Position numbers and translations under genes: made by a program. This document shows, piece by piece, positions 43,228 to 64,000 of a stretch of DNA of 64,000 bases. The notes under the pieces were generated by a model. The model was given only the letters and a program-made list of their open reading frames with translations, ran no database searches and had not been told where the DNA came from. The first letter of the stretch is position 1. Every line of letters starts with the position of its first letter. This stretch comes from Paenibacillus sp. V4I7 (lineage in GTDB: Bacteria; Bacillota; Bacilli; Paenibacillales; NBRC-103111). The stretch covers positions 992,001 through 1,056,000 of the forward strand of contig NZ_JAUSZD010000002.1 in the NCBI RefSeq assembly GCF_030817275.1. Reading direction: 5' to 3'.

Positions 43228-43248
43228 GTGTATTGACCGTTCAAGATT

Positions 43249-43326
43249 AAGCTAACGGAAACGATAGTTAAACATAAAGGGTTCCACATATTAGTCATAC
43301 ATAATATGTAGAACCCTTTTTTTTAT
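43249..43326 (+). repeat. Left half of attC-like site 11 with terminator
   Basis: Left motif AAGCTAACGGAAACGATAGT, then a long hairpin AAAGGGTTC...GAACCC with eight T. No right motif follows; IS remnants come next, so the site was probably disrupted. Confidence 0.6.
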
Positions 43327-43448
43327 TTGATTTTCTTAAGTTTAGGTCTTTTCAGTCTAATACTTTATTTTCCTTGAACATAATGATGATATAGCCGTTC
43401 GCATTCTACGAGTTCAAATTACCAAATTGAAGTGTCTACGGCAAACGC

Positions 43449-43788
43449 TGGCGCATCGAAGTTTTCTTCCGGGTCGCTAAGCAGGAACTCGGCTTTGAGT
43501 CTTGCCATTCCAAATCCGAGGCACACCAGCATGCACATATGGAATTACTTTTTGCAACCGAAACCCTTCTTACCTATGCGTTATGGCAATTAAACAACAA
43601 AAAAACATAGTGATGATGAAGGCTACACCCACGGCGAAATGGTTCGTGGCCTCTTCCACACTCGTTGTCAGGTCCGTCGCAGAAACCGCAAAGGGTCTGA
43701 ACGAATCTTCATCGATTTTGACATAGAAGCACGCCGCTTTGCAAGTCTTATTTCGGATTACTGGCCTCCCCAACTTTTCATGACGTGA
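43449..43788 (+). pseudogene. Transposase remnant (IS4-type C-terminus)
   Basis: WRIEVFFRVAKQELGFESC and ELLFATETLLTYALWQLNN resemble the Y-x-x-x-E-type C-terminus of DDE transposases of the IS4 superfamily. A stop at 43608-43610 and a frame change lead to GYTHGEMVRGLFHTRCQVRR...ISDYWPPQL. The N-terminus is missing. A dead IS fragment. Confidence 0.6.
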
Positions 43789-44102
43789 TGGCCGGTTTAC
43801 TCAAACATAGATTCTCACAAATACCAATTAATCTCGCGAACTGCATAAGTCCTGTGAGTTTTTCAAGGTCTCAATTATATGTGATATTTACACCTATGTT
43901 ACAAGAAGTTAATATTTAGACAACAAAGTTAGTTTATTCTATAAAAGTAGTTTAATAGATAACTAATACCTAATAAGAAACTAACGATCCTTAAATATGT
44001 ATCTAAAAAACCCCTTCAGTGAAGAAGTGAAGTGCACCCTTTAGAATAGACATTGGAAAAACCCTAGGGTTAAACCGATGAAATTCTAGGGGGTGTTTTT
44101 TT

Positions 44103-44432
44103 ATGGCTTTGAAAGGGCAAAAGTTTAAGCATTATCCTGAATCACTTAAGATGGAGGCAATTCGTCTTCACACGGTGGAGGGCTGGAGTCAGAGGTCCAT
44201 TGCTATTCATTTGGGAGTTCAGGATAAAGATCGAATTAAGGTATGGGTGAGGAAGTATCGGGAAGTTGGAGACACCGCATTTAAGGATGGTCGGGGAGAT
44301 CCAAAACGAACGGAGACCGAACAAGAGCGCGAACTCCGTAGGCTACAATTGGAGGTAGACGTGCTAAAAAAGTGGTTACAAATCTTGAATCAGGAGGTGC
44401 ATACTGTAAGCACATCGTTGTCGACCAAATGA
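44103..44432 (+). CDS. IS3-family OrfA
   Basis: A 109-residue helix-turn-helix protein (KFKHYPESLKMEAIRLHT, GWSQRSIAIHLGV, KVWVRKYREVG) with a leucine-zipper-like end (RELRRLQLEVDVLKKWL). CTAAAAAAG at ~44365 is an A6G slippery sequence for -1 frameshifting into OrfB. Confidence 0.85.
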   Translation: MALKGQKFKHYPESLKMEAIRLHTVEGWSQRSIAIHLGVQDKDRIKVWVRKYREVGDTAFKDGRGDPKRTETEQERELRRLQLEVDVLKKWLQILNQEVHTVSTSLSTK

Positions 44433-45265
44433 AGAACAGACAAAGCATAAAAGGATTATGCCAATACCTTGGCATCAGTCGTAGTGGATACTATAGCTAT
44501 CTGAAAAGAAGCAACCATGATCCTGACGAAGATCTGAAACTGCAAATTACAGCCATATTCGAACGGCGTAACAAGACTGTCGGCTACCGACGCGTACAGG
44601 ATGAGATGTACCGCCAGCATGGCCTTGTGGTTAATCACAAGAAGGTATTGCGTTTAATGCAGGAGCTGGGCATTCAGGCTGTTATCCGCCGCAAATATGT
44701 TCACCGTACAAGTCAGCAAGCAGCCGTAGAGGATGGCCGAATCGCAGAGAATCTGTTACAACGGAATTTCAATGCAGACGCCCCCAATCTAAAATGGGTA
44801 ACCGACGTAACCCAGTATCGGGTATTGGATGAAAGAATCTATCTGTCAGCCGTTAAGGATCTCTGGAATAACGAAATCATTGCCTACCATATAAGTAGGA
44901 ACAACGACAATCCACTTGTTCTAGAGACCTTTAAGAAGGCATTCAAAAAACATAAAGACGTGACTGGATTGATCATTCACAGTGATCAAGGAAGCCAGTA
45001 CACGTCTCATGCTTATCACGACATGCTGCCACAGGTTGGAGCCCAAATCAGCATGTCACGCCGAGGAAATTGTTATGACAACGCCTCGATAGAAAGCTTC
45101 TTCTCTCATCTTAAAGTCGAAGCACTCTATCCCTATGATATACGATCTATTGATGAGGCACAAAGGCGAATCGAGGAATTTATCCAATTTTACAATGAAG
45201 ATCGTGCTCAACGAAAACTAAACAAGCTGACACCGGTTGAATACCGGCGCCAGCTTGTTGCATAG
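44372..45265 (+). CDS. IS3-family OrfB (DDE integrase-like)
   Basis: The catalytic domain of an IS150-type transposase. An HTH_21 region (RQSIKGLCQYLGISRSGYYSY) precedes the DDE core: D in LKWVTDVTQY, D in IIHSDQGSQYTS and E in NCYDNASIESFFSHLK. Made mostly as an OrfAB fusion through the A6G slip in OrfA. Appears intact. Confidence 0.9.
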   Translation: MVTNLESGGAYCKHIVVDQMKNRQSIKGLCQYLGISRSGYYSYLKRSNHDPDEDLKLQITAIFERRNKTVGYRRVQDEMYRQHGLVVNHKKVLRLMQELGIQAVIRRKYVHRTSQQAAVEDGRIAENLLQRNFNADAPNLKWVTDVTQYRVLDERIYLSAVKDLWNNEIIAYHISRNNDNPLVLETFKKAFKKHKDVTGLIIHSDQGSQYTSHAYHDMLPQVGAQISMSRRGNCYDNASIESFFSHLKVEALYPYDIRSIDEAQRRIEEFIQFYNEDRAQRKLNKLTPVEYRRQLVA

Positions 45266-45329
45266 GGCTTTTTCCAATGTCCACTAAACGGGGTCTTGAC
45301 CAGAAGTGAACTGAAGGGGTTTTTTAGAT

Positions 45330-45787
45330 ACAATTAATTAAATATAAAATGTAACAAGTACATTATCTTTTTTTCGAACATATCCACCTAAGTAGTCGTG
45401 GGCTTTAAATATGTAGCATCATACGGGGCAAATCATCTATGCAGCAAAAATGAGAAAGGGACAGCTTGTATGGCAATACGATTAGGGATAAAAACTTGAT
45501 ATAATTGACCAGTGGTTAAATAGTCATTGATCCCCAAGGACTATTTAATTTGAAAGGATAAGCATGCCAGTAAGCAAACTAACGGCGTTTATGTTGATAC
45601 GGATCGATTCCAGTAGAATTTAATTTTATGAATGTCGAAATCAATGTGAAAAGTCACAAAACAGATGAGTGGAAATCAATGCTATATTTCTGAAAAATCA
45701 AAACTATCGCTCTATATGATATACATTTTTTATAGTCTAATATTAGGTTGAAAGGCTGATTGCTATAAAAAATACGGAGGTTGGCAA
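45330..45787. other. Gene-free region upstream of Ig-like protein
   Basis: No gene supported. AAACTAACGGCGTTTATGTT at 45577 resembles an isolated left motif. Confidence 0.35.
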
Positions 45788-48637
45788 ATGAGAACAAAGG
45801 TAACAAAGCGAATTACAGTATTAACTCTCATCTTTATAGTAATCCTGTCTCTATTTAGTAGTTTGGCTTCTGCCTCGCCTGAAAAGTCAGTAAAGGCAGA
45901 AGGGAAAACAATTGTATCGCTCGTTTTAGCTGCACCTAGAATTACATTCATAGATGAAGGGGAAGAGCGTCCTATCGCTTTGAAAGCACTTTATAGCGAT
46001 GGTTCGATGGAAGACGTAACTAATTTAGCTAAATGGGAATCAAGAGATCCGTCGATTGCAAAGGTTGAAAATGGCGTATTAAAAGGGATATCACCAGGTG
46101 ATGTTTCATTGAGAGTAACCTACTCAACTTTCCCACAGATAAACTTCTTTGCTTCTATAAGAGATGTTCCAGAAAATGTAACGGCGCTTCTACTTTCGGC
46201 TGGCAAGTTGAGGTTAGAAACCTCTGATAAGCCGGTTCAAGTATTTGCCTTTACAAGGGACCCCGAGAGTAGACAGGTTACTTCTTTAGGAAGTTGGACA
46301 ACGACAGATCGTAATGTTGCTACAGTTAGTAAAGATGGTCTGATTACCCCAGTTGGAATAGGCCAAGCATATATATATTTTAAATACGATAAATTGGTTG
46401 ATGCTGTACTTGTTAATGTTGTTAAGCCGGAGAAGCTTGTAATTGATGAACCTGCTGTTGAAATTTTGCCAGGTGCAAATTGGCCGGTTCAATTAACCGA
46501 AGTATTCAATAACGGAGAGTCAGAGAATGTAAATCCAAGTGAAGTGAAGTGGACTGTCGAAGATAGCAGCATTGCAACGGTAACGGATTCAGGATTAATC
46601 ATAGGAGGTAAGACAGGTAAAACAATTGTGACAGCTTCCTATCGATCAGATGTTCTTCCTCCAGTTAAAATTGAGGTTACTGTCACCAATAAGCTTACTA
46701 CTCCAAGAGTTATTGGTTTGGCTGCTTCTCCATCAAACCTCTCCATAGGTGTAGGTGATGAAGCGCCAATTGCAATAACAGCGATTTACAGTGATGGGAG
46801 CACGGAGGATGTCACAGCTTCCGTTCAATTGTACTCCGACAATTTCTACGTAGCTTCAGTTCAGCAAAATTTTGGTGGTACATCAAAGGTTATTGGTCAA
46901 TTGAGTGGCGCAACCGTTTTGCATGCTATCTATGCTAATGGTCGTCACACTGTAGATATCCCGGTGGCTGTCGCGGATAAAGACGGTCAGAAGAAGGCTC
47001 CAACCCCTGAATCGATTTCTGTTACACCAAATATAAAAAATATGGTGGTACATCAACAGCAGCAATTGGAGGTAAAAGCGAGCTATACGGACAAATCTGT
47101 TGTAAAGTCGACTCCATCTGCGGTTTATAAATCATCTAATCCTGATGTTGTTAAAGTGAATAAGGATGGCCTACTTACTGCTGTAGGTACTGGTACAGCC
47201 ATAATTACCGTAGATAGCTCCGGTTACTCAAAGCAGGTTCCTATTGTCGTTTCAAAAGAACCTTCTAAAGATTTAGTGAATAAAATTGTTGATCTGATTC
47301 CTAGTGAAACTAACATCTCCTTTCGGTTAGCCGAGGGCATGCATTCGTTTTCTGTAAAAGCAAAATATCAAGATGGTTCAACAACTGACGTCACTTCAGA
47401 TTCAAGATTCACATCACTAGACCCAAGCATTGTTACAGTTAAGAATGGTGTTCTTACAGCCGTTGCACCAGGTACAACTCAGGTCCTTATCAATCACGGG
47501 ACAAGCACCGAAATCTTGAAGGTTTCAATCCTTTCTGAAAATAATGCATCTACGGGGGATTTAAAAATAGAATCATTGCTTGTATCCTCATTGGATGTTA
47601 TTGTTCAAAAAGATAAGCTTTATCCCGTACATGTTTTAGCCCAATACAATGATGGAACTCAAAAAGAGATTACGAAGTCAATCCAGTGGATTTCAGAGGA
47701 TCCTAATGTTGCTGGTGTTACAGACGGGAAATTTACTGGAAAGAAAATTGGTAAAACGAAAGTTAGTGCAACAATTGAAGGTTTCCCTTCTATTCAAATT
47801 CCAGTAAAAGTAACAGAAAAAGAGGGACCAGTTAATTTAGTCGGAATCACTAAAAACATACTGGGAATGCTAATACAGCCTGAGGCAGGAGCTCCTGTAG
47901 ATGTGGACGCCTTTGCGGAATATACAGATCATAATATAGTTCAGGTTGATACTGATGGGAAGTGGGAATCTTCCGATGAGAAAGTAGCAACTGTTGATCA
48001 GAACGGGGTCATTAGATGGGTCGGCCCTGGTGAAGCATACATCTATTTCAATTATGGAGGTTTGAGAGATTCTGTTTGGGTAAGAAACACAAAGCCTGTA
48101 GCTTTAACGTCATTTCCCCGCAATGTGATGTTAGAACCTAATAAGTCGACGGACGTGTCTATAATTGCTTTCTTTGGTCATCCGGGCAGAGATGGTAATT
48201 GTGATTGTTTTGATGTTACTAGCCTAGTAAAATGGACGGTGGCGGACGAATCGGTTGCAACGATTTCTGCTGATGGACATATCATCGCTCACGCTGTTGG
48301 AAAAACGACGATAACTGCTACTGTTTTTGGTATGTCAACGACAATTAATGTTGAAGTCGTAGCAAAGTATCCTACATTTACATTGGGGATAAGCTCTTCG
48401 CCGGGTTATATCGTAAATTCAGCAGGCTCAACAAGTGAGATAGTCATTAATGCAATGTCTAGCGATGGAACGGTAAAAGTCGTTACGGCTGATGTCACAT
48501 GGAGTACGTCTAATCCGGAAGTAGCTGAAGTGACCGCTGATCATAAGATCGTAGCGAAATCAGAAGGAGCAGCTGTGATATTTGCGGAATATGATGGATT
48601 TAAAATAATTATTCCTGTTGTAGTAAAACCTAAATAA
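45788..48637 (+). CDS. Large secreted protein of tandem BIG2 (Ig-like) domains
   Basis: A 949-residue exported protein with a signal peptide (cleavage near ASASPE) and about nine to ten repeats of ~85-95 residues. The pattern is ...LKALYSDGSMEDVTNLAKWES.D.SIAKV.NGVLKGISPGDV..., the bacterial Ig-like group 2 fold. No sortase motif, SLH domain or catalytic domain is visible, so it may bind surfaces or polysaccharide by itself. GGAGG precedes the ATG. It follows the IS3 element and is much longer than other array genes. Confidence 0.85.
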   Translation: MRTKVTKRITVLTLIFIVILSLFSSLASASPEKSVKAEGKTIVSLVLAAPRITFIDEGEERPIALKALYSDGSMEDVTNLAKWESRDPSIAKVENGVLKGISPGDVSLRVTYSTFPQINFFASIRDVPENVTALLLSAGKLRLETSDKPVQVFAFTRDPESRQVTSLGSWTTTDRNVATVSKDGLITPVGIGQAYIYFKYDKLVDAVLVNVVKPEKLVIDEPAVEILPGANWPVQLTEVFNNGESENVNPSEVKWTVEDSSIATVTDSGLIIGGKTGKTIVTASYRSDVLPPVKIEVTVTNKLTTPRVIGLAASPSNLSIGVGDEAPIAITAIYSDGSTEDVTASVQLYSDNFYVASVQQNFGGTSKVIGQLSGATVLHAIYANGRHTVDIPVAVADKDGQKKAPTPESISVTPNIKNMVVHQQQQLEVKASYTDKSVVKSTPSAVYKSSNPDVVKVNKDGLLTAVGTGTAIITVDSSGYSKQVPIVVSKEPSKDLVNKIVDLIPSETNISFRLAEGMHSFSVKAKYQDGSTTDVTSDSRFTSLDPSIVTVKNGVLTAVAPGTTQVLINHGTSTEILKVSILSENNASTGDLKIESLLVSSLDVIVQKDKLYPVHVLAQYNDGTQKEITKSIQWISEDPNVAGVTDGKFTGKKIGKTKVSATIEGFPSIQIPVKVTEKEGPVNLVGITKNILGMLIQPEAGAPVDVDAFAEYTDHNIVQVDTDGKWESSDEKVATVDQNGVIRWVGPGEAYIYFNYGGLRDSVWVRNTKPVALTSFPRNVMLEPNKSTDVSIIAFFGHPGRDGNCDCFDVTSLVKWTVADESVATISADGHIIAHAVGKTTITATVFGMSTTINVEVVAKYPTFTLGISSSPGYIVNSAGSTSEIVINAMSSDGTVKVVTADVTWSTSNPEVAEVTADHKIVAKSEGAAVIFAEYDGFKIIIPVVVKPK

Positions 48638-48695
48638 ATAATGTCAATTATGAATTATTGATGATGAGATGAATTCTCCAGCCATATTCAATTTG

Positions 48696-48726
48696 AAAAG
48701 CCAGCGATTTGTTACGCTGGCTTTTT
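48696..48726 (+). terminator. Terminator of the Ig-like protein gene
   Basis: AAAAGCCAGCG / CGCTGGCTTTTT stem and T tract. Confidence 0.85.
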
Positions 48727-49120
48727 ACTATAGTAAGTTTGGAGGCGATACAAATAGAACATTACATGAACCGTATCACAAATAGAAGCATCAGTTTCAT
48801 CTCAAGCAAGAAATAAAGGATTTGCAGCAGCATCAAATATTTTTGACACATCTTCCATAGGAACATGCTTGTACGATAAAGGTAAGAGTCAGAATTTTAT
48901 CCTCTAAACGTAATGGTTGGAATTGATTTTGTTTCGTTTAGGAGTTATATTTTAATTCAAACAATGTGCTAAGTAATGGTGAGCAGTAGTCCGCGTAAAC
49001 CGCGGGCTTTTTTATTTATCGGCTCAAGTTCTTGTAAATTGACAATGTCAAGAACTTGAGTCGATTGCCGATTTGTGACAAGAACATTGTCCGAATGCCG
49101 ACACATAAAATTTAACCGCT
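48727..49120. repeat. Gene-free region with TGTCGG-type repeat copy 1
   Basis: CCGCGTAAACCGCGG with T6 (48991-49013) is followed by perfect 12-base arms CTCAAGTTCTTG/CAAGAACTTGAG and a GTGACAAGAACATTGTCC motif ending in GCCGACA (49104). The same three parts in the same order recur at 54189-54333. No gene here. Confidence 0.65.
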
Positions 49121-49145
49121 AAACTAACGGGCAGCATAGTGGAAA
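49121..49145 (+). repeat. attC-like right motif
   Basis: AAACTAACGGGCAGCATAGT, without an adjacent left motif; it lies 63 bases before a ribosome binding site-bearing start. Confidence 0.55.
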
Positions 49146-62798: not shown

Positions 62799-62835
62799 AC
62801 ATAGCGTAAATGTTTCAGGATGCAGCTCGAGGCAT

Positions 62836-62933
62836 TAAACTAACGGGAAACTATAGTTCAATAAAGATACGGAGGCAGCCGACCACAATGATCGGCTGCC
62901 TTTTCCACGATAGCGGGTAGGATAGTGGAGTAA
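62836..62933 (+). repeat. attC-like site 22 (last in array)
   Basis: Left motif AAACTAACGGGAAACTATAG, hairpin GAGGCAGCCGA...ATCGGCTGCC, right motif GATAGCGGGTAGGATAGTGG. Confidence 0.7.
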
Positions 62934-63000
62934 GCGATATTGTTTCAATCAAAATGAGATCGAAAATATAATAAACCGTTTTGGTAAAGATTTTTATGAA

Positions 63001-63624
63001 ATGGTTTTGAGAGTTATTAATACATATTCTGATAAGTGGGCTCTGAACTCTTTTCAACTTATTCCTTCATATTCAGCAAACTTAGTTGTTAGATGCACTT
63101 CAGCTCGCTTTGGAAGTGTGGTGCTTAAAATAGGTAATCCCGCATTAATTTCCACTGAATATAATACTTTGAGTCAATATTACGGCAGTCAATTTTGCAA
63201 AGTGTTTGACGCGGATGTTGAGAGTGGTGTCATACTTGAAGAGTGTGTGCGACCAGGTATTTCTTTAAGGGATGAAGATTTACTTGACAAAAGACTATCT
63301 GTATTTTGTTCCTTATATAAAGGCATGCACATAACACCTGTAAAAACTGGAATATATCCGACTTACACAGAATGGGTCAGTAGAATTACAGAATACATGA
63401 GTAAGCGAGATGATTGCACAGAATTATATTTGCACATGAAAAAAGCAGAGGATATATGCTTATCGGTTTCTTCTTCGTATCTGACGATTACGGAAGGCAC
63501 GGTGAAAAATCACGTCTCAAATCTGATCGCGAAGCTGGGGCTCCGCGACCGAACGCAGGCGGCGTATATGCGGTCCGTCACTCCATTTGAGCGAAACGAG
63601 CATGACTTTTGGCATAGTGTATGA
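63001..63624 (+). pseudogene. Chimeric frame: truncated aminoglycoside-phosphotransferase-like N-terminus joined to a LuxR-type HTH
   Basis: Codons 1 to ~158 resemble the N-lobe of streptomycin/hydroxyurea phosphotransferases (APH 6 type): SYSANLVVRCTSARFGSVVLKIGN, EYNTLSQYYG, VILEECVRPGISLRDED, RLSVFCSLYKGMHI. The catalytic HGD loop and C-lobe are missing. From ~63478 the frame reads LTITEGTVKNHVSNLIAKLGLRDRTQAA, the recognition half of a LuxR/NarL HTH. GC rises at the join. This is most simply a deletion or insertion junction marking the array edge, not a designed fusion. Confidence 0.65.
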
Positions 63625-63941
63625 GATTCGTCATGCGCAGCGGCCCAAGGTGATGCTTTTTTTGCGTCCAATTCATGACGTTCAACAGATTTGGCAGTCC
63701 GCTATTCTTGGTAAGATCAAAGGGCAAGAACGGAGGAGAACGCGGCAGCGAATCTCCGACGAAACTCAAGAAGAGATAGGAGAGTGGGCGTGATGGCGGA
63801 AAAAAGAGTCGGTTTGGCGTTGCGGATCGTGACTGTGTCGCTCTTGCTGTGATGGTGGTCGGATCTTTCTTTGAACTCAACTGCTTCTTGAATTATTGAA
63901 CGCACATACGAATGCAATGGATTATGCGGAGGTGAAGGCTT
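63625..63941. other. Gene-free region after the junction
   Basis: GC-richer than the array. A 19-codon frame from ATG 63793 (AEKRVGLALRIVTVSLLL) looks like the start of a broken membrane or sensor protein. No intact gene. Confidence 0.35.
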
Positions 63942-64000
63942 ATGAACTTGAAACGATTCGTGCTTCCCGGGTTGATGGCCGTGGTGTTGTTTGCCGCTTA
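63942..64000 (+). CDS. Start of an exported protein, cut by the window
   Basis: ATG with GGAGGTGAAGG upstream opens a frame beginning MNLKRFVLPGLMAVVLFAA, a signal-peptide-like sequence. It runs off the right edge; family cannot be judged. Confidence 0.5.
   Translation, partial: MNLKRFVLPGLMAVVLFAA

Follow-up and report, generated by a model that had tools for sequence, protein, structure and literature searches.

Chimeric ORF at 63001 to 63624

The open reading frame (ORF) at positions 63001 to 63624 of the window (the whole 64,000-nucleotide stretch of Paenibacillus sp. V4I7 DNA analyzed; coordinates above 64000 extend its numbering beyond the window) encodes 207 amino acids and is a single open frame that spans the join of a kinase gene to a regulator gene. 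The kinase remnant occupies 549 bp of the forward strand (62932 to 63480) and is of the APH(6)/hydroxyurea-kinase type. Its DNA is 78 to 80% identical, over 62932 to 63480 only, to complete genes encoding 305 to 314 amino acids in three relatives (genomes G036, G002, and G015), and the homologous protein of G036 is a member of the APH_6_hur family (PF04655; E = 8e-17). The remnant covers residues 2 to 188 of 305 and lacks the start codon as well as the last ~38% of the gene; a complete kinase domain is absent, so the remnant does not qualify as an APH(6)/hydroxyurea kinase, and the kinase part of the ORF has no Pfam match of its own. Alignment with the complete genes places the start of the kinase frame at 62932, directly after the right box of the last array site in the window, with the native start codon missing; the ATG at 63001 is not the start of the gene.

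The regulator tail (63488 to 63590, forward strand) corresponds to the second half of the helix-turn-helix (HTH) of a NarL/LuxR-type response regulator, as derived from alignments and from a match to GerE (PF00196; E = 1.3e-06) covering profile positions 26 to 56 of 57. With the receiver domain absent and the GerE HTH partial, the tail falls outside NarL/LuxR membership; an intact paralogue further to the right has both domains. Kinase homology ends at 63480 and regulator homology begins at 63487/63488, after a joining segment at 63481 to 63487 (forward strand) that is illegitimate in character and holds no box. The GC content is 0.344 at 62932 to 63480 versus 0.536 at 63488 to 63640, and the GC step at the join (150 bp on either side) is in the top 1.8% of absolute steps in the window. 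No box was detected at the join at up to 2 mismatches, the closest being the right box at 62910. At 4 mismatches, a string resembling the left box begins at 63481, which is the chance level, since 2 such strings occurred in each of two stretches of ~200 bp tested. A sequence-only reading of this locus had described a truncated APH-like frame fused to the recognition-helix region of a LuxR-type regulator, with a GC jump and without a site at the join, all of which is borne out. It had set the fusion in frame at ~63478; the frame is as described, and the join lies slightly further to the right.

The same kinase/regulator chimera is present in Paenibacillus sp. V4I3 (genome G003). In V4I3 the natural frame and stop of the regulator tail are preserved, and the window copy carries a single-base frameshift relative to it; an in-frame join is in any case a 1-in-3 event. 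With the start codon and the final ~38% of the kinase gene gone and a frameshift in the regulator tail, the chimera is most likely a dead pseudogene scar, and the fused ORF would have no function. The chimera DNA gave no match in plasmids, a 29-base junction pattern had 0 matches in viral contigs, and an Rfam scan of the window returned one match, a tRNA. In an order-level search, the kinase gene was matched in 25 of 296 genomes at E ≤ 1e-50, including the 2 chimera carriers. At 20 of the other 23 loci, no convincing box pair that would mark the gene as an ordinary cassette was found around it; these 20 loci showed only scattered box matches with 2 or 3 mismatches, among them 3-mismatch right-box matches near loci L207, L210, and L085.

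Array sites and their distribution

The array consists of repeated sites of ~90 bp that are similar enough to be detected by BLAST. Each starts with a left box of approximately AWTNAACTAACGG-nnn-ACGATAGTTCAAT, followed by a hairpin and a right box of approximately CTAACGGGCAG-n-ATAGTT. In the last site in the window, on the forward strand, the left box matches the pattern at 62834 to 62862, the folded hairpin is at 62871 to 62906 (GGCAGCCGA ... TCGGCTGCC), and the right box at 62907 to 62931, a 2-mismatch pattern match at 62910, abuts the kinase remnant. At up to 1 mismatch, the forward strand between 26000 and 62834 holds 17 left boxes and 9 right boxes (1 and 0, respectively, on the reverse strand). 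There are none between 62932 and 81150, and 12 left boxes and 1 right box on the forward strand between 81150 and 116400 (none on the reverse strand); these counts include strings that matched both box patterns, 4 of them in the left array and 1 in the right. The flank background at the same threshold is 2 left boxes in 59 kb of the left flank of V4I7 and 1 in 66 kb of that of V4I3. Further to the left, a stretch of ~30 kb (window coordinates -49896 to -19105) is missing from V4I3; it contains a small group of boxes (-43160 to -38847) and a single further box at -20054.

We compiled 49 pairs of left and right boxes from six regions, a pair being a right box (up to 3 mismatches) located 30 to 110 bp after a left box. 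The hairpin stem had a mean length of 8.0 bp, versus 4.5 bp in dinucleotide shuffles. Stems of at least 8 bp were present in 23 of the 49 pairs, and since these 23 stems had 22 different sequences, the hairpin structure is kept while its sequence varies.

An 18.3-kb unit shared with Paenibacillus sp. V4I3

The chimera lies within an 18.3-kb segment that extends on the forward strand from left box to left box (62834 to 81168, with 62834 to 64000 inside the window) and is 99.93% identical to G003:3287405-3305739. Both ends fall within left-box cores, on the left at 62840, where the identity with V4I3 starts inside the box, and on the right at 81157. When the first ~16 bp, which correspond to the divergent left arm, are set aside, the two copies are separated by 6 substitutions and 3 single-base indels over ~18.3 kb; the backbone would lead one to expect ~1,280 differences, since the 12 blocks to the left of the array (61,944 aligned bp) have a mean identity of 92.95% between the two genomes. 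The near-identity of the unit is thus discordant with the left-hand backbone. On the right-hand side, there was no collinear backbone stretch longer than 400 bp between the two genomes except for the integrase piece described below.

The array content of the two strains is mostly unrelated. Among the shared array blocks of at least 120 bp, three units are more than 99% identical, namely, 43248-49134, 62834-81168, and 94098-97187, the first and last of which were each joined across an insertion that only one genome carries. In V4I7 they follow one another as 43-49, 62-81, 94-97, and in V4I3 as 94-97, 43-49, 62-81. The ends of these units coincide with a box or lie no more than 6 bp from one in 6 of 6 cases in V4I7 and in 5 of 6 in V4I3, where one end is off-box; the boxes, extended by 12 bp on either side, cover about 3% of the array. 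In V4I7, five of the six ends fall in left boxes and the remaining one in a right box core. The ends of older blocks (less than 99% identical) are mixed, and many are off-box. The insertion that splits the first unit, at window positions 44033 to 45308, is absent from V4I3 and holds an ORF of 297 amino acids that may be an IS3-type transposase. When the segment from 63480 to 81168 was tiled with three queries, a full-length match was found only in V4I7 and V4I3 among 30 genomes of the genus, with at most the 10 best candidates per genome scored; no third genome was found that has the unit elsewhere or lacks it at the same place.

Cargo of the unit and a second scar

The unit is composed of one hairpin site, the stump of the kinase gene, about 16.9 kb of mosaic, chromosomal-type DNA, and a cassette gene for a HAD hydrolase. 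The mosaic DNA comprises the regulator tail, MsrAB, DinB, an intact histidine kinase-response regulator (HK-RR) pair with a DoxX-type gene, AraC, MFS, an aldehyde dehydrogenase, an SDR, and a second MsrAB-DinB. The first intact cargo gene is an MsrA-MsrB fusion gene (PF01625 and PF01641) that starts at 63942 on the forward strand and runs past the window end at 64000 to 65087. The relative G013 has the layout HK, RR, and MsrAB, followed by DinB-matching DNA, which is collinear with the RR tail, MsrAB, and DinB to the right of the join. Relative to this layout, the histidine kinase gene and about 185 of the ~220 regulator residues are missing at the join, which agrees with the earlier statement that most of a response regulator was lost. 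The intact HK-RR pair, which is paralogous, lies with the DoxX-type gene 3 to 5 kb to the right of the join.

In V4I3, HK-RR and MsrAB-DinB matches are also found close together at 2.81 Mb, and HK-RR and MsrAB matches at 1.52 Mb; the copy in the unit is thus an extra one and not the sole chromosomal locus. Other genomes share separate pieces of the cargo, of which the longest seen is about 2.5 kb (AraC-MFS, 84 to 88% identity). The last ~830 bp of the unit are the HAD hydrolase gene. In genome G042 this gene forms a cassette with the order left box, hairpin, right box, ORF, and left box, and in G001 (96% identical) it is preceded by a right box and followed by a left box. The copy in the unit has lost the upstream box, with a break at 80340. 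Two scars, one at ~63484 and the other at ~80340, accordingly enclose ~16.9 kb of non-cassette DNA in the unit.

Two types of repeat were observed in the cargo. MsrAB-DinB forms a direct repeat (64065-65607 and 77577-78874, 92 to 93% identity), the second MsrAB copy being broken into several short frames, and a repeat of ~229 bp at 70973-71201 recurs at three further positions of the V4I7 genome and, whole or in part and at 85 to 96% identity, in many genomes of the genus.

A tyrosine integrase to the right of the array

The V4I7 genome has 12 matches to PF00589. One of them is a tyrosine integrase at C2:1108460-1109299 (window coordinates 116460-117299), preceded by a left box; boxes extend from 81157 to 116314, and the integrase gene follows. 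In V4I3, boxes are present at 3305728-3308160 to the right of the chimera, followed by the integrase at 3308305. The sequence-only reading had taken the chimera for the place where the array ends and older chromosome begins, which is contradicted by the rightward continuation of boxes and integrase in both genomes, V4I3 being the kind of relative that the reading itself had named as a refutation, with the same chimera and further array DNA on its right. At the 116-kb copy, the two genomes differ to the left of the left-box core and agree to the right of it, and the array genes and the integrase are read in one direction. Three further observations concern the surroundings of integrase copies. 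(i) Genes of the TnsA, Mu-transposase, and TniB types directly adjoin the integrase of the array on its right side, as in a Tn7-like element (L012:14460-19914; window coordinates 116460-121914). (ii) The 261-kb second contig of V4I7 carries an integrase copy with boxes on its strand (G000:C1:225001-245000; L080) and is a possible cassette vehicle. (iii) A partial integrase copy (residues 50 to 280) is present in the V4I3 array at G003:C1:3282437-3283123, 4.3 kb to the left of the chimera unit.

A search of 40 genomes, V4I7 included, gave integrase matches at E ≤ 1e-30 in 24; 18 of the 25 genomes of the same genus had a match, and most matches outside the genus were only 32 to 49% identical. 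Four plasmid records carry an integrase with 49 to 52% identity. A scan of named genomes yielded 269 relatives of the integrase, the best 80 of which are in Paenibacillus, Cohnella, Brevibacillus, and strains labelled Bacillus; these 80 loci include several copies per genome and are therefore not independent. After removal of 8 loci (5 without the gene start and 3 with less than 200 bp upstream), 72 remained, of which 68 had enough downstream sequence for a count of right boxes. A left box was found within 250 bp upstream on the integrase strand in 59 of the 72 copies (at 80 to 106 bp in 55 of them), versus 3 of 72 in the reverse-strand control. A right box (up to 3 mismatches) was located downstream of the gene in 39 of the 68 copies and in 0 on the reverse strand. 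Both boxes were present at 35 loci, which indicates that the integrase gene is often placed between them, at the position that the hairpin has in a cassette.

The integrase does not reach the IntI cut-offs, scoring 90.3 bits with TIGR02249 (cut-off, 265) and 54.9 bits with PRK15417 (cut-off, 435). Its best NCBIfam scores were obtained with XerC, XerD, and the archaeal XerA, all below the curated cut-offs; the XerC and XerD equivalog values were 187.4 of 335 and 186 of 330 bits, respectively.

Discussion

In both genomes the scar is enclosed in a box-bounded, near-identical segment whose identity is at odds with that of the left-hand backbone, and more array and an integrase follow on its right. 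Judged from these sequence comparisons, the chimera is probably an old illegitimate junction that lies within a single cassette-like unit of 18.3 kb in an integron-like array, and this unit would have moved recently. What had been seen as older chromosome to the right of the join is best read as the cargo of this recently moved giant cassette. Three steps may have led to the present arrangement. (i) Joins outside any site, at ~63484 and ~80340, would have placed DNA of chromosomal type next to an array site on one side and a cassette with a remaining downstream box on the other; the scars would in this way have created the giant cassette. (ii) A dedicated tyrosine integrase would then have recombined the two flanking left boxes, so that the whole segment behaves as a giant cassette. 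The position of the integrase gene beside the boxes suggests that it acts on them, and it may thus be the enzyme that mobilizes the unit. (iii) The unit may have been exchanged recently between two Paenibacillus species, or a third donor may have given it to both; the box-bounded near-identity is the observed pattern from which such an event is inferred.

The main rival explanation, which we consider unlikely, is that the segment from 62.9 to 81.2 kb is an immobile island between two arrays, that a larger tract was recently transferred between the species by homologous recombination, and that the neighboring cassettes turned over afterwards. The segment does lie between arrays in both genomes, and once its neighbors had turned over, the limits of any fixed segment common to both would coincide with the nearest box, so that the same ends are expected. 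However, the two other units with more than 99% identity are also bounded by boxes and occur in a different order, nothing else between these units is near-identical, and the left backbone is at 92.9%; it is the reshuffled order of the other near-identical units that speaks against a fixed island. Considerably less probable is an exchange of the RecA type between the repeated ~90-bp sites, which would swap whole units and for which an integrase is not needed. The BLAST-detectable similarity of the sites would permit it, but such exchange should also hit the hairpin part, whereas the six ends in V4I7 are in five left boxes and one right box core (a weak argument, as the events are few).

The model of the sequence-only reading, in which a deletion fused the true end of the array to the native chromosome with loss of an integrase, appears more improbable still. 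A site-free join and the absence of the histidine kinase and most of the regulator relative to G013 are in its favor, and the part of the proposal in which array-side DNA was joined illegitimately, outside any site, to DNA that had formerly carried a response regulator can be kept. Removal of the end of the array cannot, because array and integrase continue rightward in both genomes, the DNA on the right is a recently shared mosaic, and there is no trace of an integrase at the join; a terminal edge of the array at the chimera is thus rejected. To a functional fusion gene or an assembly error, finally, we give hardly any credence, and both are rejected. The open frame is continuous across the join, but the native start, the C-terminal part of the kinase, and half of the HTH are missing and one genome has a frameshift; an error of assembly at the join, as the earlier reading had considered, is contradicted by a second assembly, that of V4I3, which has the same junction and differs by a few bases nearby.

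The preferred reading, that of a mobile cassette-like unit, calls for a comparison with known systems. Like integrons (IntI, attI, and attC, including CALIN arrays), the Paenibacillus arrays have small tandem units that share one orientation and carry a two-box site with a predicted hairpin, a dedicated tyrosine integrase beside a box, and a content that turns over at box cores between relatives. They differ from integrons in that (i) the integrase, with 90 of 265 bits, falls well short of the IntI model, (ii) its gene is often flanked by a left box on one side and a right box on the other (35 loci), (iii) crossover points are at both box types, (iv) genes and integrase have the same direction at the 116-kb copy, and (v) the 18.3-kb unit holds whole operons. 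The XerC/XerD-type recombinases are alike in giving the best NCBIfam scores, but the array integrase is below their cut-offs, occurs in multiple copies, and is tied to the array boxes. Composite transposons and genomic islands resemble the unit as multigene mosaic segments recently shared between species, whereas the ends of the unit are half-boxes of array sites.

Searches of an open-license literature library showed no description of such arrays in Paenibacillus. To our knowledge, the origin of gene cassettes is an open matter in integron biology. One article names cassette genesis as a factor and, in the part cited here, does not give its mechanism (PMC8352920). For the Firmicutes, the IntegronFinder 2.0 paper reports a single complete integron (Limnochorda pilosa) and few CALINs (PMC9024848). 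Against this background, we tentatively suggest, as a possibility somewhat short of even, that the Paenibacillaceae have an integron-like system of their own, with the order left box, non-IntI integrase, and right box, that can make giant cassettes from multigene chromosomal segments; an illegitimate join beside one site, with a second left box beyond it, would suffice for the integrase to move everything in between. The chimera would be the scar of such an event, and the 18.3-kb unit would have crossed a species border. A candidate route of cassette genesis could then be read from the unit itself, in the order site, scar, chromosomal-type cargo with operons, second scar, and finally a typical cassette gene together with its box. 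If the unit does move, the capacity of such arrays would extend beyond single small genes to regulons of ~18 kb. A dedicated non-IntI integrase with its own boxes, present in many Paenibacillus and some Cohnella and Brevibacillus strains, would fill the integron gap in the Firmicutes by another enzyme.
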